Shown here in pieces: positions 3 through 42,832 of a stretch of 64,000 nt of DNA. Numbering within the stretch: the stretch's first letter is position 1; every line of letters begins with the position of its first letter. A model generated the notes under the pieces. That model was not told the origin of the DNA and did no database searches. It saw nothing but the letters and a program-made list of their open reading frames with translations. Both the position numbers and the translations under genes were made by a program. The DNA is taken from contig NW_019029044.1 in the NCBI RefSeq assembly GCF_002105155.1, positions 154,813 to 218,812 on the forward strand, in the 5' to 3' direction. Source of the DNA: Lobosporangium transversale. Its lineage: Eukaryota; Mortierellomycota; Mortierellomycetes; Mortierellales; Mortierellaceae.

Positions 3-671
3 ATGCAAGAAGACAACAGGTTTACTTACCACATTAAAATGGTCCTAAGACGATGGTTCCAAGAGAACAAGCAGGAAGGCAAGGCTGTTGAAGACATGAT
101 CGAGGGAGAGCCGTTCGTCAATGCATCAACCCGCAAGGCCCTTGACCCCATTGGCAGCCTACCCGACGAAGGCACGGCGACCCTGCAAGCTTTTTATCCT
201 CCCCTATCTGTGCCTAAATCCAACAGACGATCTAAGAAGCGCTACGCGGCAGTGATGGGAGTGTCGAAAGCCATTGCAGAAGCCATGACGAAAGCTTCAG
301 TGCAGGATGATGATTTTGGCAAGGTTATGGACAGCTTGGACTCGATACAAAAAAGTACAAACATATCAACCAAGGAGACTGGCCTTACCGCAGGTTCTGA
401 TGAAGTTGTCAAGGCACAGGATGGTGCTGATAGCGATTGCTTGTTTAAAGGTATCCCAGTGGAGAGTATTATTGATGGAGATATACTCAATGGGAAAGGC
501 AGACCAAGAAGCCGGCGGTTTACGGCAAGCTACGAAGACAAACAGAGCAAAAATGAGCCTGCGGAGCCCACGGCAGAGACGCCAGCACGATCCATGCAGG
601 CCAAGCGAAGGAAAGTCGGGTCCGAATCACTTGTCTGGCAGATTCCAAAAACAATCTCTGATTTTAAGTAG
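3..671 (+). CDS. hypothetical protein, C-terminal part of a gene entering from the left edge
   Basis: An open frame of about 222 codons begins at the window edge and ends at 671. The first ATG is at position 3, so the true start may lie outside the window. The product is hydrophilic, with basic clusters (around residues 70-80 and 165-172) and a KRRK stretch near residue 202 that could be a nuclear localisation signal. No domain is recognised. A poly(A) run of about 29 nt follows 35 bp after the stop, and AATAAA lies at about 686, as expected for a 3' end. The length and balanced codon use make it more likely a real gene end than a chance frame. Confidence 0.5.
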   Translation: MQEDNRFTYHIKMVLRRWFQENKQEGKAVEDMIEGEPFVNASTRKALDPIGSLPDEGTATLQAFYPPLSVPKSNRRSKKRYAAVMGVSKAIAEAMTKASVQDDDFGKVMDSLDSIQKSTNISTKETGLTAGSDEVVKAQDGADSDCLFKGIPVESIIDGDILNGKGRPRSRRFTASYEDKQSKNEPAEPTAETPARSMQAKRRKVGSESLVWQIPKTISDFK

Positions 672-706
672 CATCTTTTGCAAACAATAAATTCTTTATA
701 GTGACG

Positions 707-737
<31 letters not shown>

Positions 738-1277
738 CCATTCATATTTATTATTGGTGATATTCTTTAAGATCAATTAGACTGGGAACAATTAATGGGA
801 AGGGATCTTCTTTAGCGGAAAGCGAATTGGGAGGAAGCGGTCATATTAGTCTTTTTAATTGATGGAAGCGTAAGGAGCGCGTGAAGGAAAGAATAAATAA
901 AGATGGAAGAGGAAGATGAGACATGATCGTGGAAATGAATTTTTTTTTTTTTTTTTTTTTCAGAAAAAAGTCACATGGCTACATGGATGATGATTTAGGT
1001 CCCGTTATTATACTGGTCTTGCTTTTAGAGAGGTCTTTGCCAATTATACATCTATTGCTTAATATACTTCTTGTATTTGATGGGTATTTAACTAACAAAC
1101 GGCAGCGTTACAAAGCTTTATCTGATTACTTGATTTGGAGTGAGAGGCAAAAAAAAAAAAAAAAAAAAAAAAAACCAGAAACAATTAAATGTGGATGACG
1201 GGGGGTAACAATTCGGGTGAAAACGGGGGGGGTATGGGAATTCTCAGCCGGGGGGCATTTTTCAATTTGACGGGGGG
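672..1277. other. intergenic stretch with three A/T homopolymers
   Basis: No coding frame of note. It contains a poly(A) run at about 706-736, a poly(T) run at about 940-960, a poly(A) run at about 1149-1173, and a G-rich patch at about 1199-1275 with several runs of five to eight G that differs in composition from its surroundings. Confidence 0.5.
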
Positions 1278-21828: not shown

Positions 21829-23600
21829 AATCTATAATGGATTATGATGCCAAATCCAGCCCTTTTTCCATTTAAGGGTATTATGTTTCATGTCTGTACG
21901 TACAAGACATGTGTCCGTTTTGTGGCTTTTACTCCGACACTTGTCCTGAAATTTGAATTGACATCAAATCCATCGAAATTTTAACAATGTCATCATGGCA
22001 TGCTAAAGATCTCTTTCTTTCTTCTTTATTTCACGCCTTCATTCCTCCATACATTCATATACACAATAAAACAATAAAACCTACAATACACAGAGTAGAC
22101 TTACCCTCTCCCCTGACTAAAGCTGAGAAAAATAACGGCACATTCGCATTTTCAAAGGTTCATTCCTGCTTGCTCACTTTCAAAATGACAAACAACAACG
22201 AAAAGATTTTATCCAATTTCACCTGCATGGATTTGGAACAAAGCACCAGTCAGACGAAGCCAACCAAGTCAAGTACTCGCACTGGATCCACTCGTGCAGC
22301 ACCGAGGAGAAAAAGAGTTATTCTGACTGACGAAACGACTCCAGAGCCTTCACCAGTGGCACAGACTGTTAGAGTTAGTGCAAAGTCTTTTAAGCGCCCT
22401 AGGCGTTGTGAGGCTGATTCTTTATCCTCAAATTTCCTTCACTCCGGCCCATTGACAGAGGAAGAGCTGGCGCTGGCGAACGCACGGAAGGAGTCGGCGA
22501 GAAGTGTGCTGTAGATGATTTTAGATGATCCAGATTCATCGACGACAGTGAATCAATATAAGACATAGCTCCGGCTGTGGGAGGTATGTTTGATCATCAA
22601 AATGTGGCTATGAGCTATCTCAGACAGGCTAGCAAACTAGACGACTTGGCTAATTCTCTTTTTTGTTTTTAGCAATACTGCAATGAAAATTATCAAGGTG
22701 ACTGTAGCGTCGATGCGAAACGCATGCTTGAATACTTCACAACGGTTGTCTTCAAGCGAACAGTGAAGCGATTGATCGGCACAGATCGTTGCTATCGTGG
22801 CGCTATTGGGTATGCCCAGCAAGGTGGAGGAGATTCTTCGAATTCTCAGGCTGGGGAAGACGCAGTCTATGAGGGAGAAGAGATCGACGAATTAGTCGAG
22901 GCAGATATCGACGAACATGAACTAAGCGACATGGAGCAGAGACTGGAGACATTAGATAATAGCGAGCAAGTTGATGACGACGACGGCCAAAGCATAGACC
23001 AAGGTCAACAACAGGGACAGGGACAGGGTCAGGAACAGGGTCAGGAACAGGGTCAGGAACAGGGTCAGGAACGGAGACAGGGTCAGGGGCAGGGACAGGA
23101 ACAAGGACAGAAACAGGAACAGGATGAAGATCTGGAGCTTCAGCTGAGGTCATTAGCACAGAGAGGTAAGAAGGCTCCTCTCTCCTGGGATAATATGGAG
23201 CCACCTGAAGGAGTCGACCCACATCAATGGCAGATTGATATAGCATTGAATGATGAGGAGCGAGCATCACATGAAGCTGTAACTGTTGGGGGTTCAAGCA
23301 AGAACATCACGCCGAAGCGGAAGACTGCAGCCGTTATCAGGACTGAAAATGAAAGAGAACAAGGTATGTAAAGATAACCATGTATTAATATATAAATTGT
23401 CAGTACTGGGATCCAAACCTTTGGGAAGGCTCCGCTATCACGCGTACCCCAGGTGACAAGACACCATGGCTGCAATTCAGTGTTAATTATCAATATAAAT
23501 AGCCTACTAAATTATGACTTAATAAATCATTCCTTAATCCTGCATCCACCTTAATGTATCTTTGATTGTTGCAATTTGGTTGATATTTTTTATTATACAA

Positions 23601-23637
<37 letters not shown>

Positions 23638-24407
23638 GATATACTTTCGCGTTTGTAGTTATCCTGCAAGCACCAGAGGACAAACATGGCAGCAAAAATG
23701 TCTTTGTTCCTCTCAGGCTGGGGACAGTCGCAAATGTTAAGAAGGCTTTGCAATACTTATGGAGGCAACAGTCTTCTTTGACAGCTCCGTATCCCAATCC
23801 CGCCCCAAACCCAAGAACGGATGTACCACTAGCGGAGGCGATCAAAAATTATGGAGAGAAACTTGTCCATCACAAAGTAACGACAGGCACCTTATCCCGC
23901 ACTGCCACCTGTGCCGTACGAGAACCTTACAACACTAAAATGTACCTGCGTATGTTGGCCTTTACATGGCGCATGCTTCCGACGGTTGGAGTAAGCGGCA
24001 GGCGACCTTCCGACGGTTGGAGTAAGCGGCAGGCGACCTTACGACAGTGTTGCGCGATTTCAATATATGAGGGAGAGGCTATGCCTCCTTGCACGCCATC
24101 ATATGTTGCTGCGGGATGAGGATATCCGAAACTTGAACCTGGCTAACACATTCAATATTCAGACCCGTCACCCCGCGCCAGGGTCAAAGCTGGCGTCGGG
24201 GCTTGTCTTCTGCATCACACGTGGAAAGACAAACCATAAAGGTGTCGAACTCTATGCGACAGCTTATCGACATAAGCTGTTCTTAAGGTGCACCGTGGGC
24301 GGGTTTGCATTTTATATACTAGAACGGTTCCAGGTAAATGATGCCGTCAGCCTTGACGCGAGCGTATGATTTTTTCTCATTCAATTACACGAAGTGACAT
24401 ATATCCT

Positions 24408-24440
<33 letters not shown>

Positions 24441-25161
24441 CCCTATTGTAGGTAGGTGTTCAAGGAGCCTCTTCTCAATTTTGCGGACCCTGACGAGTGG
24501 TACAGCATCAAGGTGCTAACAGGGGGTGGCACAAGCCAAGAACGGTTAGAGAACCGAAAGGAAGCGCTTGTTGGCCGAACCCAAATGAGCACTACGGCGG
24601 CTGTAATGCGTGCCTGCGACGTGCATTCGGCCAAAATTACGCACTCTGGCCGATATGCAGGGGTCTCGGAAGCCTACGAAAGAGGCTTAAGCCTGGACGA
24701 TATTCCACTTGGGAAGGTAGCTACAAGAGGCAGAAAACTGTTGGCTGCATCCTTGAGCCAAAAGAGGCTGAGAAAATACAATGTACAAGCAATCCATTGT
24801 CGTGAAATTTGTGATATTCCAAGGTGTTTAGCATAAGTATCATCCAGAAAAAAGCATTATCGTCAACACTATTAACAAGACAAAACACCATCAAAGCGCT
24901 ATCAAAGCATTTTTAACTCGACTCGGCTACCAACGCACTATAGCAGAAATAATTGAATACTTCATCAATATAAAAACTGTCTTAATCATTAACACTGTCT
25001 CTACCATAAAAAGATTTTGTCTATTTCGCTTCACAAATCCATTTTGTGGAAAAAGATTTGTGAAGCGAAATATAAAAATTTTGTGACTTGGTATCCTTCT
25101 GTGTCCACCTGTGTCCGCCTGTGTCCATCTGAATGGACACAGGTGAGCAATTTCGTTTCAC
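21829..25161 (+). mobile_element. Crypton element, tandem copy 1
   Basis: This 3,333-bp unit begins at AATCTAT (21829-21835). The same 7-mer recurs at the junction with copy 2 (25162-25168) and at the far end (28496-28502). It carries one plus-strand, four-exon tyrosine-recombinase gene. There are no terminal inverted repeats or long target duplication, as expected for Cryptons, which integrate as circles by recombination at short identical sequences. Confidence 0.8.
22185..24836 (+). pseudogene. Crypton tyrosine recombinase (Ndc10/GCR1-like), decayed, copy 1
   Basis: Exons by splice signals: 22185-22583, 22673-23363, 23659-24333 and 24456-24836. Exon 1 has a basic, Thr/Ser-rich N-terminus. 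Exon 2 holds a Gln-Gly-Glu repeat. Exon 3 includes the Ndc10 domain-2-like region LLRDEDIRNLNLANTF ... ITRGKTNHKG ... YRHKLFLRCTVGGFAFYIL. Exon 4 has the catalytic THSGR ... GVSEA block of Crypton recombinases. Defects: in-frame TAG codons at 22512 and 22566, a 31-bp tandem duplication (23978-24039) that shifts the frame, and a probable shift near 24700 that removes the expected active-site Tyr. The element would need a recombinase from elsewhere to move. Confidence 0.75.
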
Positions 25162-26933
25162 AATCTATAATGGATTATGATGCCAAATCCAGCCCTTTTT
25201 CCATTTAAGGGTATTATGTTTCATGTCTGTACGTACAAGACATGTGTCCGTTTTGTGGCTTTTACTCCGACACTTGTCCTGAAATTTGAATTGACATCAA
25301 ATCCATCGAAATTTTAACAATGTCATCATGGCATGCTAAAGATCTCTTTCTTTCTTCTTTATTTCACGCCTTCATTCCTCCATACATTCATATACACAAT
25401 AAAACAATAAAACCTACAATACACAGAGTAGACTTACCCTCTCCCCTGACTAAAGCTGAGAAAAATAACGGCACATTCGCATTTTCAAAGGTTCATTCCT
25501 GCTTGCTCACTTTCAAAATGACAAACAACAACGAAAAGATTTTATCCAATTTCACCTGCATGGATTTGGAACAAAGCACCAGTCAGACGAAGCCAACCAA
25601 GTCAAGTACTCGCACTGGATCCACTCGTGCAGCACCGAGGAGAAAAAGAGTTATTCTGACTGACGAAACGACTCCAGAGCCTTCACCAGTGGCACAGACT
25701 GTTAGAGTTAGTGCAAAGTCTTTTAAGCGCCCTAGGCGTTGTGAGGCTGATTCTTTATCCTCAAATTTCCTTCACTCCGGCCCATTGACAGAGGAAGAGC
25801 TGGCGCTGGCGAACGCACGGAAGGAGTCGGCGAGAAGTGTGCTGTAGATGATTTTAGATGATCCAGATTCATCGACGACAGTGAATCAATATAAGACATA
25901 GCTCCGGCTGTGGGAGGTATGTTTGATCATCAAAATGTGGCTATGAGCTATCTCAGACAGGCTAGCAAACTAGACGACTTGGCTAATTCTCTTTTTTGTT
26001 TTTAGCAATACTGCAATGAAAATTATCAAGGTGACTGTAGCGTCGATGCGAAACGCATGCTTGAATACTTCACAACGGTTGTCTTCAAGCGAACAGTGAA
26101 GCGATTGATCGGCACAGATCGTTGCTATCGTGGCGCTATTGGGTATGCCCAGCAAGGTGGAGGAGATTCTTCGAATTCTCAGGCTGGGGAAGACGCAGTC
26201 TATGAGGGAGAAGAGATCGACGAATTAGTCGAGGCAGATATCGACGAACATGAACTAAGCGACATGGAGCAGAGACTGGAGACATTAGATAATAGCGAGC
26301 AAGTTGATGACGACGACGGCCAAAGCATAGACCAAGGTCAACAACAGGGACAGGGACAGGGTCAGGAACAGGGTCAGGAACAGGGTCAGGAACAGGGTCA
26401 GGAACGGAGACAGGGTCAGGGGCAGGGACAGGAACAAGGACAGAAACAGGAACAGGATGAAGATCTGGAGCTTCAGCTGAGGTCATTAGCACAGAGAGGT
26501 AAGAAGGCTCCTCTCTCCTGGGATAATATGGAGCCACCTGAAGGAGTCGACCCACATCAATGGCAGATTGATATAGCATTGAATGATGAGGAGCGAGCAT
26601 CACATGAAGCTGTAACTGTTGGGGGTTCAAGCAAGAACATCACGCCGAAGCGGAAGACTGCAGCCGTTATCAGGACTGAAAATGAAAGAGAACAAGGTAT
26701 GTAAAGATAACCATGTATTAATATATAAATTGTCAGTACTGGGATCCAAACCTTTGGGAAGGCTCCGCTATCACGCGTACCCCAGGTGACAAGACACCAT
26801 GGCTGCAATTCAGTGTTAATTATCAATATAAATAGCCTACTAAATTATGACTTAATAAATCATTCCTTAATCCTGCATCCACCTTAATGTATCTTTGATT
26901 GTTGCAATTTGGTTGATATTTTTTATTATACAA

Positions 26934-26970
<37 letters not shown>

Positions 26971-27740
26971 GATATACTTTCGCGTTTGTAGTTATCCTGC
27001 AAGCACCAGAGGACAAACATGGCAGCAAAAATGTCTTTGTTCCTCTCAGGCTGGGGACAGTCGCAAATGTTAAGAAGGCTTTGCAATACTTATGGAGGCA
27101 ACAGTCTTCTTTGACAGCTCCGTATCCCAATCCCGCCCCAAACCCAAGAACGGATGTACCACTAGCGGAGGCGATCAAAAATTATGGAGAGAAACTTGTC
27201 CATCACAAAGTAACGACAGGCACCTTATCCCGCACTGCCACCTGTGCCGTACGAGAACCTTACAACACTAAAATGTACCTGCGTATGTTGGCCTTTACAT
27301 GGCGCATGCTTCCGACGGTTGGAGTAAGCGGCAGGCGACCTTCCGACGGTTGGAGTAAGCGGCAGGCGACCTTACGACAGTGTTGCGCGATTTCAATATA
27401 TGAGGGAGAGGCTATGCCTCCTTGCACGCCATCATATGTTGCTGCGGGATGAGGATATCCGAAACTTGAACCTGGCTAACACATTCAATATTCAGACCCG
27501 TCACCCCGCGCCAGGGTCAAAGCTGGCGTCGGGGCTTGTCTTCTGCATCACACGTGGAAAGACAAACCATAAAGGTGTCGAACTCTATGCGACAGCTTAT
27601 CGACATAAGCTGTTCTTAAGGTGCACCGTGGGCGGGTTTGCATTTTATATACTAGAACGGTTCCAGGTAAATGATGCCGTCAGCCTTGACGCGAGCGTAT
27701 GATTTTTTCTCATTCAATTACACGAAGTGACATATATCCT

Positions 27741-27774
<34 letters not shown>

Positions 27775-28495
27775 CCCTATTGTAGGTAGGTGTTCAAGGA
27801 GCCTCTTCTCAATTTTGCGGACCCTGACGAGTGGTACAGCATCAAGGTGCTAACAGGGGGTGGCACAAGCCAAGAACGGTTAGAGAACCGAAAGGAAGCG
27901 CTTGTTGGCCGAACCCAAATGAGCACTACGGCGGCTGTAATGCGTGCCTGCGACGTGCATTCGGCCAAAATTACGCACTCTGGCCGATATGCAGGGGTCT
28001 CGGAAGCCTACGAAAGAGGCTTAAGCCTGGACGATATTCCACTTGGGAAGGTAGCTACAAGAGGCAGAAAACTGTTGGCTGCATCCTTGAGCCAAAAGAG
28101 GCTGAGAAAATACAATGTACAAGCAATCCATTGTCGTGAAATTTGTGATATTCCAAGGTGTTTAGCATAAGTATCATCCAGAAAAAAGCATTATCGTCAA
28201 CACTATTAACAAGACAAAACACCATCAAAGCGCTATCAAAGCATTTTTAACTCGACTCGGCTACCAACGCACTATAGCAGAAATAATTGAATACTTCATC
28301 AATATAAAAACTGTCTTAATCATTAACACTGTCTCTACCATAAAAAGATTTTGTCTATTTCGCTTCACAAATCCATTTTGTGGAAAAAGATTTGTGAAGC
28401 GAAATATAAAAATTTTGTGACTTGGTATCCTTCTGTGTCCACCTGTGTCCGCCTGTGTCCATCTGAATGGACACAGGTGAGCAATTTCGTTTCAC
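25162..28495 (+). mobile_element. Crypton element, tandem copy 2
   Basis: A head-to-tail duplicate of 21829-25161, 3,334 bp long. The only difference I can locate is one extra T in the poly(T) run of the last intron (32 versus 31). All predicted protein segments are identical. It is followed directly by AATCTAT and then the body of the MULE-like element. Confidence 0.8.
25518..28170 (+). pseudogene. Crypton tyrosine recombinase, decayed, copy 2
   Basis: Same exon plan as copy 1 shifted by 3,333 bp, with the same two in-frame TAG codons (25845 and 25899), the same 31-bp duplication (27311-27372) and the same altered C-terminus. The shared lesions show that the decay preceded the tandem arrangement. 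Confidence 0.75.
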
Positions 28496-29759: not shown

Positions 29760-31900
29760 ACATTGTTGGTGATCAGGACGCAGTGATTGTGTTCTTGGAG
29801 CGCGTAATTATGACTTTATCCAGCACGAACCTTTTTTTTTTTTTATTTTTTTTAGACCATCTTCTGGCGGCCTACTCGGCATGGCGTGGACACTCATATG
29901 CTCTTGGCCGAGAACTATCGCACTGAAGGGCTTTAAGCAGATCTTCGGAGAAGAGGATATTGGATTTTAACTAGACAATGTAGAGGTTAGGAAAGATTAC
30001 GGAGTCCACACACTACACCCAGTGAGCTATTCATTCATTTTGCATCAATAAGAAGGCCTAAGAATGCTATGAATTATTCATATTGTAAGCTCACGTAGTA
30101 AGTCCAGTCATTTTATATTGATTCCACCAATCAGTCAATCTATCAACCTCCTGATCGATTTATTTTGCTATGGCATTCATTTTATTAAACAGTTCGTATA
30201 TTGCTATCAAGTATAGTTCCTAGACGCTTCAGTTGAACTTCAGCAGTAATTATGAGTGTCTAATTTTACTATCCCTTAAACCGTCAACCTGGCAAATTTG
30301 CCATTATAAATGGACTTAAAATCCAGCAATTCATGGGCATTGCCTTGAAATTTTATTTCGATGTCGAAATAAATGACCGAAAACTAAACTGCCATGGAGC
30401 TATCCTGGCTTCTTTATCTGTGCCAATAAAAAACTCCTGAAGGCTTTTGCATGACACTAGCATCCTCTTGGGGGCCCATTGTGTTGTTTATTTATTGACT
30501 GGTGTAATAGAAATAGAAGTGATGATATTCGCCATAGTATCGACTTGAAAGGAGGGCAATCTGAGTTGATTCATTCTACCGCACCATAGAGTTTGCTCGG
30601 CAAGACTTGATTTGTCACATCATTTGCTTCCTCGTCTTCTTGATATATCTGGGTTGGTAAACACTGCTAATAGAGTTTGTTGGGCCTGTTGAAACCAGAG
30701 GGAACCACAGCAACATATCATACCCAAGATGATACAAATATCTCTGTTGGAGTGAGTGGTGAACTGTGTGGTTCAGATGTAGTGGACATAAAGGGCGAAA
30801 GAATGCATCGAAAGGATGTGAGCGGTTATGAGAGCAAGGAAGAAGGGGTTGGTATGCCTGTTCAAGTCCTTGGCAAGAGAGCATGAGTAGCAGTTGTGAT
30901 CAATGGTATAGTTTCTAGACCCTATCTTCCACGTACAGCATTGCATTATTGTTGTTTTCAGACCTGGCGCCAATCATGCGAGGTATTTCTTTTTCTGAGG
31001 GTTCCTTGTGTTAAACGGCCAGACAGAAAGCTTAAAAGACATACAGACACAACGGTGAAAAAAATGTATGTGAGCAAACAGTTGCTGTGTTTATTTGTTG
31101 TCTGCACATGCCTTCTATCCCTAGGAAAGGATGAAACGCGTCGGTATTAATCTCGCTTCTGTAATTCTAAATGCATATATTTTGGCGATTGGTATCAACT
31201 ATCAAGTTCGCACATACACACACCAAACGACCGCCAAAAACCACCACTCTCGCTTCTGCTCTCCCTCCATCCACAAGGCGCTGCGCAATATCACCATTAA
31301 CAAGGCACCGTCCAGTAAGAAAGGGTGCTTAGCTAGCTTTTACTCCAAGCAATAAGCACATCACCTATCTCCGCCATTGATGCCGGAACCTGAGAGCCAA
31401 CGAATATCTCTGCTTTAACGCAATAGTGCTGGGGCTGTTGGAGCAAAGAACGACATCTGAACCCATTCTCTGATAAAAAAGACTTTTTTTTTCTTTAGTT
31501 GTTACCTTTGACAAGGATATAATCACCAAGTCATATCTGTCAATGCATTTATTACCCCTGTTCAAAATTATAAATCTTCTTTTATTCATTAAATTCCTCA
31601 CAAAGCACAAAGCACAAAGCAAGGGCGAGTGCAAACAAAAGAAACTGAAAAAAAAAAAAAAAAAAAAAAATTGTGTAAAAAGGATTGACATCGACACTGT
31701 ATGCTGTATATGGAGATGATTTTTTCGAATGCTCACTTTGGTATTTCAATGCTATTGTTTCCAATCTGCTGTTCATGCGAGAGCTTGTATTTATTTGTCA
31801 ATCTCTGCTATTGACTGGGACAAAACCCCAATCCAAACAAAGGAACTGAATAAAGATTGATGTGGCCTGTGAAGCAAAGGATCGATATCAAAACTATATG
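29760..31900. other. 2.1-kb stretch without recognisable genes
   Basis: I see no gene, tRNA or element ends. Short frames exist on both strands but none has domain-like content or splice signals. Homopolymers are at about 29831-29860 (T) and 31645-31670 (A). Confidence 0.45.
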
Positions 31901-31932
31901 AGACAATGATAAAACTCATCATCAATCCAGGA

Positions 31933-31941
31933 TATAAAAAG
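31933..31941 (+). promoter_or_regulatory. TATA box upstream of the flap-nuclease/Fanzor gene
   Basis: TATAAAAAG lies 242 bp upstream of the ATG at 32183. The region between is pyrimidine-rich (about 31950-32175) with a long poly(T) run at 32085-32122, the usual look of a transcribed 5' leader here. Confidence 0.55.
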
Positions 31942-32081
31942 GGATCATTGTCTTCCTCCTTCAAAGTCCCATCCCTTTTACCACTGCCACTTGTTCCTAT
32001 ATCTTTCCCTCAATATTCTTTATCTATTCGCTTTGAATCTTTACACCATAAAAAAGCTCATCATTTTATACCTTTGTCGCT

Positions 32082-32121
<40 letters not shown>

Positions 32122-32182
32122 CATTTCTTTTCATCACCACCATTTTTCCTTTTTTCTTTCTCTTTTCGCTTAGATATTGACC

Positions 32183-35100
32183 ATGGGGCTGAAGTCCTTC
32201 TTCAAACTGGTTGCGGATCGCGGGGTTTTACCTTCGGAAACTGACGTGGGCACTTTCTTGGCGGCAAATCCTGACCATTCTGTTCATTTAGATCTCCTCG
32301 GTACGTTCTATTACGACATCCTCCGCAGAGTCGTCCATGCAAAGATGAAAAACGAAACCATCATTGATGTAGGAAGGTCCCTGGCACTCGAGATAAAGGA
32401 TCTTTTCACAACGGACAACCTGACTATACATATTGATGGGGAATCTTGTACTGAGAAAGAAAAAGCAAGGACAGAACGGCAAGCCATAAGACAAAAAAAT
32501 ATGGACGCTTTGGAGAACAATATGAGCATCTTCGAGAGAAATTCTCGGTATGGACTCGTCCTCAAGTCATGAGGCGCATCCAGAAGGGTCTTCGAGAAGT
32601 CCACACCCTGAGCGTCCAGGACAAGGATCAGCTGGCAACAGGCCTTAGTTCTGTCTTCGATGTCTGTCTGTGTGCATATGAAGCGGACCCATGCATAGGG
32701 TGCCATGATGAGGAGAATGATAGGATCGTGATATCCCAAGACTCTGATTTTTTTGCGTACGAACGAGTCTGCTTCCTAGTGCGACCCCTTCCGCACCGTA
32801 GACGGAAGTTTGGGGTTTACGATGTAGACAACGTTATCCAAGCACTAAGACTGCCAACACACGCGCATCTGGTGTTATTCTGTGCCATCGCAGGCAATGA
32901 CTACTCAAGGAACCTCGAGACGTTAGGCCCGATTACTAATCTTCGATTAATTCGAAAGGTTGCGTGGAACGAGAACTACAATAAAATGCTTCAAGATTAC
33001 CTCAGGGAAGCTAATAAGGTGTTGGGAAGGAACGTAGCCTCTAGGGAAGGCCGTTTCAGTGTAGCTCCCCGCATTTTTACTTCCGGCCATCAAACGTTGG
33101 GCCAAGCGTTACCATCGAACAATGAGTTCGATAACTTCAAGCAGCGTCTACTCAATGGAAAGGATCTTCGCCATAGAATGGCTCAGCAAAGGCGAGCGCA
33201 GCGCCGCAGAACGTAAGAAAGCTCAAGCTATAGTTTTTGGCCTTGAAACCAGACGTCCCCAATACTAATCGTTAGTCCCTTTCTTGAATAATGTAGAGGC
33301 GTACCATCATTCTATATAGCGGAAGGGGCACATAGGAACCAGTTCCGGCCCATCTTTTCTGACAAGCCGAGCATATTGAATGGGCGCACAGTTGATATCA
33401 GTAACTGCCGTCAGCACGATAGGCGAGGCCTTAAGCATCCACCACGTCGGAGAAAGGCAAAAAAGAAGCAACAGAAAAAACAAAAGCGGAAGCACAAAGG
33501 CAAGAAGCCCCACAGGGCTAAAAAAGAAGGTGCACCAATTAGGAACTTGAAGGATGCTACGAAGGTTGATCACAGCTACAGCAGTAAGCACCCTATCAAG
33601 GCCTTAACAATTGGGTCCCTTAAGGCCTCCGTGGCAAGGAAAGGCGGACTGGACGCAGATGAAAGGGATAGTATTGCAAGCCAGATCCGAGGGGCAGTTG
33701 TTGTCCTCAACCGACTACGCCGCTATGCATACTGGGCGATTGCCTTGGACATTGAGAGGATCATGCGGTTACCAGGGGCAGCAAAGTCGAGGAAAAAGGC
33801 ACTGGACGAGGTCTTGGATAGCAATGATTATTCCTTCCGTCTCGCCACCCTTCTTTTGAGTGGTCAAGGTGGCCCCAATTCAGCTTACGCGAGGGCAAAA
33901 AAACAAGGAAAGGCGGTAGAAACGCCCCATCATCACCTCGCTTATGAACATTTCAAGGTCACCACTGAACTTTCCCCAATAAAGGATATAGACATCACAT
34001 TGGGGGACTTCCAAGGCTTTGATCCCAAAAAGATCACATTTCCAAGAGCGTCAGACTTACTAATGGGCCAAGTACAGACATCATTAAGGCAGCACTACAG
34101 GAACGCAATGGTATAGCTTGTATAGGGGTATTTCCATGCATATTCTGCAATCGAATGCTCTTTATTCAGACTCTTTTTTTTATTTTTTTTTCTAGTTTGA
34201 TGTCGAGAAAACAAACGAAGATATGAGCGACATTGAGTTTTTTTTGCGGGAGAACAAAAAAGTGAAAAAATACTCAGACTTTCCTACGTCCTCCTGGTCA
34301 CCCGGGTATGTGTATCTGTCTGAACACGCCCTAGTTGACATCCTCTGGGCGAACGAAGATACCAAGCAGCTGCTGGAGCGTATTCTGCCTCTCGACAATC
34401 CTTCCAAGACTGCAATGTTTGAGTGTGTACAGGGAACAAAAGGGGTTTTGATTCAGGCTCTCTTTTGTGACATTGGAGGTGATCGCATGGTTCGTGGATA
34501 TCAAGACAAAGATCTAACTCGGTTCAAACTCAAAGGAACGATTTCTACCAACGGTCTAGTTCTGAATCTACTTGCCTATGACACAACCCAGACGAAGAGA
34601 CAGCAGCAGTCTGACGTACATGAAGAAGACCCCAGCCAAGAACTGGAGCTTTCTCAGGGATTTCTCAACACGATGTGTTCAAAGGCGGCCGGTGAAGACC
34701 TGACAGATGAAGACTACGCAGACATAAACTGGAAGAGGAGCTCCAAGCTGCTTGAAAACGTTGAGCTCACATTCAACAAACCAGGGCGATGCCCATCCGC
34801 AAACACCACAACTATCGTCGGATGTGATCCTGGTATTGTTAACGCCCTTACGTTTTCCTCCCTGGATCCTCACAACCCTAACTTGCGGCAAACGGTAAAG
34901 GTGAGAAGCAGGTTCTTGTACCTCCCCGTCCTCCGCTTCAATCACCTGTTGAACAAAAGGAAGCGTGAAAAAGGAATGATTGAGGTTGAGAGCGCCATCC
35001 CTGTGTTTGGAAGGGATACGTATAATGAGTACTTTCAATGGATGAACGAGGAGTCTCAGACACAGACAGGATCAACGAATTTGGATGTGCTTCAAGAGTT

Positions 35101-35649
35101 CTATGAGTCCAGATGGCACCTGAAAAAAAAATGGGACCTACGAAAGGCTCAACGAGCTACGTTCGACTACGCGGTACAGCGAGTGTTGAAGATGCTTGGG
35201 GATAAAGGAGTACTTGTCGTCGGCCTAGGGTCCTTTGAAAGTAGTAAAGGAGTTCCCAGCAAGCACACTGCTATAACGAGACATCTTGTCACACAGGTAT
35301 GGCTTTTTTTAAAAAAGTAAGCAAAGCTGGAAAGCCATAAAACCCTTGCTAATAAACGACTGCCATTTGAAACGCTTAGGTCAAAGCACGAGGACACTTC
35401 GCTGTAGGAGCGCACGAATTTTACACCAGCGCCCGCTGTCCCCGACCCCTCTGCGATAGCTTTTTAGAGACGCTGTACCCTCGCTCTAAATATTGCAGGA
35501 CATGTAAGGTATTCTTCGACCGTGACGCAGTAGGGGCGGAAAACATCGCAAAAATCGGTCTTGCTCAAATTGAGAGGCAAGAGAGACCTGCAAAGTACAG
35601 GCTCACGGAAGAGTCGCCTGCTCCGGCTGCAAAGCGCGCACGATGCTAG
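32183..35649 (+). CDS. FEN1/XPG-like nuclease fused to a Fanzor/TnpB-type RuvC nuclease
   Basis: Exons 32183-33254, 33299-34110, 34196-35296 and 35380-35649 have compatible phases. The N-terminus starts MGLKSFF, like FEN1 MGI. The flap-nuclease acidic residues all appear: D in VHLDLLGTFYYD (32291), D in IHIDGES, E and D in AYEADPCIG, DSD in ISQDSDFFAY, and D in AGNDY followed by a helix-hairpin-like LGPITNLRLI. A basic linker (PRRRKAKKKQ..., about 33440) and a helical region follow. The C-terminal half has RuvC-I VGCDPG (about 34817), RuvC-III DRDAVGAENI (about 35518) and a zinc ribbon CPRPLC ... CRTC, the TnpB/Fanzor layout; RuvC-II is less clear (GLGSFESSKG). Two offsetting frameshifts (about 32500-32560 and 33060-33170) put the middle of the flap domain in another frame, so it may be decayed or mis-assembled. 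One transcript is inferred from phases, not proven. Confidence 0.7.
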
Positions 35650-35660
35650 ACACAAGTATT

Positions 35661-35678
35661 TGGGTGCCGGCACACCCA
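35661..35678 (+). ncRNA. hairpin just after the Fanzor-like stop codon, candidate guide-RNA scaffold
   Basis: TGGGTGCCGGCACACCCA can fold with a 6-bp stem (TGGGTG/CACCCA), and it also contains the 10-nt palindrome GTGCCGGCAC. It begins 12 nt after the stop at 35649. In TnpB and Fanzor loci the guide RNA overlaps or follows the 3' end of the nuclease gene. That is family knowledge; here only the hairpin is seen. Confidence 0.3.
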
Positions 35679-35775
35679 CAAAAAATTTGTAAGTTCTGTT
35701 TATTTTCGTCTCCTGTATCCATCCTCTCTAATCTTTTGCCCCTGAATTTCTGGACTAACTTTAAAAACCGTACAG

Positions 35776-35950
35776 ATCAACAGATAACTTGGGTGCCTAT
35801 CGTGACATTTGTTGTCGTGGGACCACTGGCGAACGGTGCCTCCTATCCATAAGGAAACTCAAGGATAAAAGTAAGGGCGAAGAAAAAGATATTGCGCGAA
35901 GAAAATGGGGTTTCAGCATGTGCATAAAGATTGCTGACTCCAAAATCTAA
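35776..35950 (+). CDS. possible downstream exon of the Fanzor-like locus
   Basis: After a GTAAGT donor at about 35690 and a TACAG acceptor at 35771-35775, an open frame of 58 codons runs to TAA at 35948. It has two adjacent Cys (DICCRG) and a charged, Lys-rich end. Joining it to the zinc-ribbon exon requires skipping the TAG at 35647 by a different frame, so it could be a decayed C-terminus, an alternative exon or chance. Confidence 0.25.
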
Positions 35951-36682
35951 ACTAGTCTAGCGCGATGTTTAAGTGAATAATAATAAGTAAAAATTTACTG
36001 AATAAAACTTCAAGTACGGATGTTCAGTACATCAGTGCCCAAAAGGTAAATATTGTAAAATGCAGGTACATGTATAGTTTTCTTTTTAAACCTCATTTTG
36101 AGGTCTTCAACACTACGTGATGCGCAGCACTTAAACAAAAAGTTTCTCATTTGACATCGTTACCGTGCTCAAGCTATTCCAACCCCCCATCCCTTACACT
36201 AATCAAATATCTTCTTCCTTATTCACTCACCACTTTCTTTCATATTCACATTTACATTTACATTTATATTCACCTGCCTTGCGATATTATCGTTCATTTG
36301 GATATTTAGGGTAGGTATTCCTTATTCGTTGACATAATGTATTCGTAATTTAGTACTATTCAAAGCGCATGGGATCGCTCTGACGCGGGGGCTTGACTCG
36401 TGCTACAGAGCAAGCAATGAGATCAATGCACTTCTGCCCAGGTTGGCTGGGTGTCTGAGGACTTATTCGGCTGAGTCCCTTTCCAGTCATGGTTAATTTT
36501 GCCACTACTATCGGCATATTCGGAACTCTGGTTGACCTTAGTGGCGTCATCCAAAGCTTCAATAATAACTAACACTTCATTAAATTAGATAGGGTGGATT
36601 AATGGGTCATATATTGCAAACAAATAACACTATGTTTATTTGCTTTTTTTTTTTTAAGAAAGCTACGAAAAAAAAAAAAACA

Positions 36683-41895: not shown

Positions 41896-42832
41896 AAGCC
41901 TTGGATGACGCCTCCTGACCAGTGCTTTACCACTTGTATATCCATCTCACCCAAGGTCAAATAGGGCTCCGAACATGCAAGTGGTAATGGTAAATTAACC
42001 ATGACTGGAAAGAGACTCAGCTGAATAAGTCCTCAGACACCCAGCCAACCTGGGCGGAAGTGCATTGATCTCATTGCTTGACCTGTAGCATGAGTCAAGC
42101 CCCGCGTCGCAACACAAGTCTGTTCTAGGGTCACTCAAGCCTTGGATGACGCCTCCTGACCAGTGCTTTACCACTTGTATATCCATCTCACCCAAGGTCA
42201 AATAGGGCTCCGAACATGCAAGTGGTAATGATAAATTAACCATGACTGGAAAGAGACTCAGCCGAGTAAGTCCTCAGACACCCAGCCAACCTGGGCGGAA
42301 GTGCATTGATCTCATTGCTTGACCTGTAGCATGAGTCAAGCCCCGCGTCGCAACACAAGTCTGTTCTAGGGTCACTCAAGCCTTGGATGACGCCTCCTGA
42401 CCAGTGCTTTACCACTTGTATATCCATCTCACCCAAGGTCAAATAGGGCTCCGAACATGCAAGTGGTAATGGTAAATTAACCATGACTGGAAAGAGACTC
42501 AGCTGAATAAGTCCTCAGACACCCAGCCAACCTGGGCGGAAGTGCATTGATCTCATTGCTTGACCTGTAGCATGAGTCAAGCCCCGCGTCGCAACACAAG
42601 TCTGTTCTAGGGTCACTCAAGCCTTGGATGACGCCTCCTGACCAGTGCTTTACCACTTGTATATCCATCTCACCCAAGGTCAAATAGGGCTCCGAACATG
42701 CAAGTGGTAATGATAAATTAACCATGACTGGAAAGAGACTCAGCCGAGTAAGTCCTCAGACACCCAGCCAACCTGGGCGGAAGTGCATTGATCTCATTGC
42801 TTGACCTGTAGCACGAGTCAAGCCCCGCGTCG
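41896..42832. repeat. 241-bp tandem repeat, about 3.9 copies
   Basis: Units begin at about 41896, 42137, 42378 and 42619 with AAGCCTTGGATGACGCCTCC. Units 1 and 3 share one set of variants (GGTAAATTAACC, CAGCTGAATAAG) and units 2 and 4 another (GATAAATTAACC, CAGCCGAGTAAG), so the array is a duplicated 482-bp dimer. Each unit has an 82-codon frame on the minus strand, which I regard as incidental. A single diverged unit lies in inverse orientation at about 36370-36560. Confidence 0.95.

Follow-up and report, generated by a model that had tools for sequence, protein, structure and literature searches.

A putative Fanzor nuclease with an added FEN1/XPG-like nuclease in a multicopy transposable element of Lobosporangium transversale

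FEN1, XPG and EXO1 are related nucleases of a single family with members that either take off 5′ flaps or resect 5′ ends; cutting by TnpB is thought to aid the persistence of its element by provoking copying repair. The control of events after the cut is an open question in TnpB and Fanzor biology with a direct use in genome editing, where the repair outcome is a main limit, and a natural RNA-guided cutter fused to another nuclease that processes DNA would reveal the means by which mobile elements exert such control. Here, we describe a candidate of this kind, a transposable element termed family A, in a 64,000-nucleotide stretch (the window) of contig NW_019029044.1 from the 42.7 Mb genome of Lobosporangium transversale (Mortierellaceae). 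Fanzors are recognized by a DPG motif, a relocated RuvC-II Glu with its canonical site replaced, and the pattern D-X(125,275)-[TS][TS]xx-C4-X(5,50)-RD (PMC3627910, PMC10711439). The element shares with Fanzor1 the DPG motif, a Glu relocated to a place six residues ahead of the zinc finger, [TS][TS]xxC, an RD after the zinc ribbon, a location in a transposon and a conserved right end; it differs in a predicted additional N-terminal FEN1/XPG-like nuclease, which goes unmentioned for Fanzor1 in the available parts of these sources (PMC3627910, PMC10432273, PMC11423790, PMC10711439). Both terms were found together in one text only, where a single sentence on two viral contigs refers to ‘Fanzor flap endonuclease homologs (Fendons)’; no domain fusion is described in the available part of that source (PMC11071296). 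No description of a Fanzor–FEN/XPG fusion was found in the literature searched, which is not proof of its absence from print. The element appears to encode a Fanzor with an added FEN-type nuclease, an architecture found so far in Mortierellaceae; relatives are available for study because the fusion recurs in several genera.

We consider the element to be, more likely than not, a Mortierellaceae DNA transposon in which one spliced gene encodes a two-nuclease protein that would couple RNA-guided cutting to the processing of 5′ flaps or 5′ ends. The predicted protein begins with a structure-specific nuclease of the FEN1/XPG type, which a basic linker connects to a RuvC nuclease of the Fanzor (TnpB-like) type. 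The sequences establish that the element has many copies and fixed ends, that its two halves follow one order with set intron phases and retain their motifs, and that they recur across families and genera. In what follows, genomic loci carry L numbers, contigs C numbers and proteins P numbers.

The end patterns of family A, searched with at most one mismatch, occur in the genome 19 times (left) and 35 times (right), with no occurrence of the reversed patterns. The right end is sharp (...ACCGTACAGATCAACAGATA), and the flanks beyond it are unrelated between copies except in duplicate pairs (for example L013/L014 and L010/L025, each of which shares a flank). A genome search with exon 3 gave at least 148 matching pieces, from 110 of 297 candidates scored, and one with the FEN part gave 131 matches; the two queries recover both close members of family A, to which the window element belongs, and a distant family B that is 30–40% identical. 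The ends of family B are short and inverted (TATAGCCCGTTCCATT and TATAGTCCGTCCCATT), and 41 matches to them occur in the genome. TA (family A) or TATA (family B) adjoins both element ends, and in both families fixed ends are seen at many sites, as in a cut-and-paste DNA transposon. The ends of family B, TATA followed by a short inverted repeat, recall those of Sailor (DD82E) transposons, which make TATA duplications and occur in L. transversale (PMC8533490); the resemblance is one of ends alone, no search for a Sailor transposase having been made. A single-copy host gene was also considered and was rejected, as the many genomic copies and recurring end patterns point to a repeated mobile element.

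By its motifs, the C-terminal half is a predicted Fanzor. RuvC-I (GCDPG), RuvC-III (FDRD) and a C4 zinc ribbon occur in order on the plus strand of the window. DPG at RuvC-I is shared by the window copy, the family B copy L068 and the proteins P0003, P0001 and P0002, and the RuvC-II Glu, with six residues between it and the first zinc Cys, is found in the window, L068, P0003, P0001 and L079. The sequence GLGSF lies 44 residues before the zinc Cys in the window, L068 and P0003, and this pattern was not found in P0001. The spacing from D to [TS][TS] is 171 residues in the window, 223 in L068, 187 in P0003 and 156 in P0001, all within the published range of 125–275. CxxC followed by RD is present in the window, L068, P0003 and L079; P0001 is without the second half of the zinc ribbon. 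The Pfam profile PF07282 (TNB, TnpB-type zinc ribbon) matches exon 4 of the window copy (E-value 3.2e-6) and P0003 (6e-8), both over the cut-off; P0001 falls below it (0.068), and P0002, which ends before the ribbon, gives no match. The NCBIfam profile guided_TnpB matches P0003 with an E-value of 8.9e-6, but with 25 bits against a cut-off of 100. The ratio of nonsynonymous to synonymous polymorphism (pN/pS) is 0.29 among three intact exon 3 sequences, which is weak evidence as these were chosen for being intact.

The N-terminal half resembles FEN1/XPG/Rad2 5′-nucleases in its MG[IL]K start, in the seven acidic positions, with one E replaced by D, and in a profile match across most of the catalytic core; it differs from them in being highly divergent, transposon-borne and joined to a RuvC nuclease. 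The seven positions (HLD, IDGE, YEAD, DSD and GNDY in the window copy) are complete there and in P0002, P0003, P0004, P0006 and P0010, and are present in P0007 and P0009 as far as these sequences reach; neither of the two frames read at L079, which belongs to a third family (C), showed the EAD pattern. A FEN profile of four sequences matched FEN1 (5.1e-7 over 184–298) and RAD2 (4.9e-6 over 92–263) in the PDB, and hhalign aligned it with the host's own FEN1/XPG over 282 columns (2.4e-6, probability 88.9). Structure prediction, a further test of the joined nucleases named in the first-pass annotation of the window, covered the FEN half: the AlphaFold model of the relative P0006 is confident, with a mean predicted local distance difference test score (pLDDT) of 90.1 and a predicted template modelling score (pTM) of 0.88 from an 11-row alignment. 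On viral contigs, the FEN profile gave 23 pattern matches with no relative among them, and a PHROGs search with P0006 gave no match. The Pfam profile XPG_I is passed by L005 and L006, two divergent FEN-like loci in the genome. L005 (G000:C117:642140-645361) starts with MGIVGLWPLLEEKGYD and possibly represents a further family.

The first-pass annotation, made from the window alone, had recognized all seven acidic positions of the FEN1 active site, followed on the same strand by RuvC-I, RuvC-III and a C4 zinc ribbon, and both observations are borne out. It had also linked the two halves through introns. The three GT-AG introns stand (Table 1). In the window copy, exon 1 is split between two frames. 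The junction that the annotation had drawn, 33254/33299, has no support, the conserved phase-2 intron being intron 1 of Table 1; at the corresponding position family B has an intron that is likewise in phase 2. Removal of intron 1 joins exons 1 and 2 in frame (33212/33297). In an alignment of 53 rows, consisting of the window and 52 locus rows (several loci overlap within one copy), its splice sites and branch point are kept in the aligned rows with the exception of L051, in which the 3′ splice site is lost. The introns of family B have the same positions and phases (2, 0 and 0) as those of family A. In L068 they measure 83, 86 and 79 nucleotides and the spliced gene is one continuous reading of 1209 residues, while in L067 they measure 96, 86 and 95 nucleotides and exon 3 contains a stop. 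Of the 15 FEN matches in family B at 29–30% identity (E-values 4e-25 to 1.3e-22), 14 sit in an unbroken frame of 341 residues. The start of exon 2 (FY[IV]...N.[YF]RP[IV]F) is alike in family A, family B and Podila, and partly so in Benniella.

Gene models from Benniella, Podila, ‘Mortierella antarctica’ and Entomortierella span the junction, on account of which the fusion is regarded as conserved. They comprise P0002 from Benniella (1160 residues; 34% over 90%), P0003 from Podila verticillata (1260 residues; 29% over 96%), P0004 from ‘M. antarctica’ (1136 residues, partial), P0005 from Podila horticola, and P0007 and P0009, both partial, from other Mortierellaceae; the junction is also read across in P0001 and P0014 of L. 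transversale itself. The architecture sought in relatives is therefore present in these models, and the two domains are not confined to separate genes among the homologues. The core of the first-pass reading, that a single eukaryotic gene encodes both a FEN-type and a Fanzor nuclease, is supported by the predicted reading of L068 and the spanning models of other genera. As a whole that reading is supported in part: the window copy, which gave rise to it, is broken, and the roles that it named (removal of flaps, maturation of the guide, transposition) would be candidate roles.

The same order of the halves recurs at many other loci in the genome and in proteins of other genera, which is more than chance would give. 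At 39 of 69 zinc-ribbon loci the 6 kb upstream contain a FEN match on the same strand, and at the other 30 they contain none; four nearby FEN/zinc-ribbon pairs are discordant in order or strand; this count used 88 of the 131 FEN matches together with one of 82 from a further match set. The sole locus read among the 30, L080 on C62, is a decayed copy of the third family, and the 3 kb that precede it showed no FEN-like frame; others are probably truncated copies of family B. The third family is best seen in L079 on C59, which has the same domain order with DLG in place of DPG. It could be argued that two adjacent element genes within one mobile unit were merged by chance into one gene model, since gene finders do merge neighbours and P0013 (see below) may be one such case. 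The same phase-2 intron and in-frame join are, however, found in families that are only some 30–40% identical and spanning proteins come from several genera, so that this artefact is largely contradicted already and we regard it as very improbable.

Near 32545, the window copy lacks 7 nucleotides of exon 1 in comparison with 19 of 20 other loci measured, and consequently the two parts of its FEN segment lie in different frames. The remaining locus is 1 nucleotide shorter than the other 19 at the equivalent place, and the 20 loci include L029 and L059, which overlap on one copy. From 32545 the spliced reading is open to its end (951 codons, stop included). The window copy also lacks about 155 bp that are present in L042 and L043 at 31116/31117. 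Judged from its reading frames, it is a broken member of the family that cannot make the fusion protein as it stands. Stops or frame breaks are found in many other copies, and much of the family is therefore decaying.

Several results weigh against a two-nuclease protein as set out above. A PDB profile search with the Fanzor half returned no Fanzor or TnpB, the best match being a TET variant (0.004). Pfam XPG_I matches the window copy only weakly (E-value 0.013; 16.3 bits, below the cut-off of 24.9); the XPG_I match is likewise under the cut-off for P0003 and P0006 and absent for P0002. Two acidic positions are lost in P0008, and the family A copies on C66 and C69 read DSN. Among ten intact FEN exons pN/pS is 0.62, which is weak evidence, biased by the choice of intact copies, of purifying selection that is only moderate. 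The FEN half stands alone in P0006 (341 residues), an L. transversale cluster of 13 members that is 99% identical to the FEN half of family B, and also in P0008, P0010 (partial) and P0011. No transposase was recognized in the element, either in a Pfam scan of 17 of the 19 open reading frames of at least 50 residues in its 5′ part (exon 1 aside) or among the DDE_1 matches. Folding of the right end is no better than that of shuffled sequences (z 0.20), and its spliced form gives z −1.59.

The proteins that consist of the FEN half alone raise the alternative that one locus has two products: intron 1 would mostly be retained to give a stand-alone FEN-like protein, the spliced fusion would be a minor or alternative form and the nucleases would act as separate partners. 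Retention of intron 1 places a TAA stop directly after the FEN half, within the GTAAG splice site itself, in families A and B alike. P0006 terminates at this stop and P0008 at the equivalent position, with P0010 and P0011 terminating close by. These four may be intron-retained products or else the outcome of unspliced gene calling, P0008 and P0011 coming from sources of uncertain gene calling. In neither family does a Met occur among the first 110 residues of exon 2, which thus offers no early start codon, yet its first residues are conserved; moreover, the models of other genera span the junction, and P0001 crosses it in the same species. We therefore consider two separate products unlikely and retain the single spliced fusion as the preferred reading.

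A different role for the FEN half would be that of a transposition helper that trims the element ends or filled gaps, with the Fanzor half as a hitchhiker and the tether serving only to keep the two together. XPG-type nucleases occur in Academ transposons, on which our literature search gave nothing usable. The short inverted ends of family B would suit such a helper, as would P0013, in which a DDE_1 end lies in frame before the FEN start. Against it, none of the 44 DDE_1 matches in the genome is on the window contig, and a genome search for the empty site of the window copy returned only the two flanks of that copy, so that no target-site duplication was obtained from it. We regard the helper role as doubtful. 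The scan of open reading frames of at least 50 residues in the 5′ part (exon 1 aside; 17 of 19) also recognized no second gene in the element, none reaching a Pfam cut-off.

Some further observations concern transposases and the relation between the families. P0013 is a fragment from Entomortierella lignicola in which the FEN start directly follows, in frame, the last part of a DDE_1 transposase (4.2e-6); this arrangement suggests that a transposase accompanies some of the relatives. On C39, C82 and C101, DDE_1 matches lie about 1.3–2.2 kb beyond family A left ends on the opposite strand. L063 (C48) and L064 (C50) are chimeric, with a family B left end and a family A body; their 300 bp left flanks are identical, as if one had arisen by duplication of the other. 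The family B copies L067 (at 461–1011, minus strand) and L068 each carry, upstream of the gene, an inverted piece with about 82% DNA identity to a portion of exon 3 of family A, and stop-containing protein-level matches beside other family B copies suggest the same.

The non-coding right end is highly conserved. Identity is 98.6–99.8% at 35650–35700 and 98.9% at 35760–35786, compared with 39% in the flank; it is 86.9% at 35700–35730, the rest being about as conserved as a coding exon (21 of 22 loci chosen, one not having been located). The variable stretch falls within a candidate intron (Table 1), the pattern of which is present at 19 of 21 family A loci (22 tried, one not located). Two of three family B right ends have a similar candidate intron that finishes 35 nucleotides before the end. 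In random sequences the pattern arises in 12 of 20,000 (family A composition) or 19 of 20,000 (family B composition), rates that are optimistic as the pattern was written after the sequence had been seen. Rfam gave no match for the right end.

FEN1 acts on flaps that carry an RNA primer, and the FEN half could accordingly serve the guide RNA instead of DNA breaks, either by trimming the 5′ end of the right-end transcript or by resolving RNA-containing flaps of the R-loop. A right-end RNA is expected for Fanzors (PMC10711439). The comparison with shuffles revealed no folded scaffold at the right end and nothing in the data points specifically to such a role, which we consider quite unlikely.

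For the two-nuclease transposon preferred here, the guide RNA would be supplied by the right end and flanking DNA, and the Fanzor half would cut a matching target, for example the site left after excision of the element. The tethered FEN half could then trim 5′ flaps or degrade the 5′ end at the break, and might thereby steer repair towards copying the element back or clean up transposition intermediates. A tethered 5′-nuclease would fit the copying-repair step, as members of its family remove flaps or resect 5′ ends. As a specific sequence of events, cutting by the Fanzor half followed by 5′ resection or trimming by the FEN half that leads to element-copying repair is put forward only tentatively, along with the idea that the transcript may also splice out the 3′ intron, and that only then would a guide scaffold be joined to the flanking guide.

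Table 1. Features of the family A element in the window (putative assignments; positions count from the first nucleotide of the window)
Feature	Positions	Strand	Details
Family A transposable element	30270..35786	+	5517 bp in window copy; ends TATCCCTTAAACCGT... / ...ATCAACAGATA
Apparently non-coding 5′ part of element	30270..32182	+	Open reading frame scan
Exon 1, FEN1/XPG-like nuclease	32183..33212	+	Acidic motifs, profile matches of relatives; frame change near 32545
Intron 1	33213..33296	+	Phase 2, 84 nucleotides; GTAAG ... TACTAATC ... TGTAG; alignment, splice sites
Exon 2, lysine-rich linker and start of Fanzor half	33297..34110	+	FYI...NQFRPIF; open frame
Intron 2	34111..34195	+	Phase 0, 85 nucleotides; GT-AG; family B counterpart
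Exon 3, Fanzor core	34196..35296	+	RuvC-I D-P-G at 34826-34834; motif test
Intron 3	35297..35379	+	Phase 0, 83 nucleotides; GT-AG; family B counterpart
Exon 4	35380..35649	+	RuvC-II Glu 35416-35418; C-x4-C/C-x2-C zinc ribbon; RuvC-III Asp 35524-35526; stop
Conserved non-coding right end	35650..35786	+	137 nucleotides; expected place of right-end guide RNA (omegaRNA)
Candidate intron in 3′ non-coding part	35689..35775	+	GTAAGT, CTAAC, TACAG; ends 11 nucleotides before element end

Elsewhere in the window, tandem arrays at 23011–28465 recur at a spacing of about 3333 bp (23011/26344, 23976/27309 and 25099/28433), a pattern that points to a segment some 3.3 kb long having been duplicated in direct orientation. 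A 241 bp satellite occupies 41896–42832 in 3.9 copies that are 98% alike, and a reverse unit related to it was noted by eye near 36390–36590.

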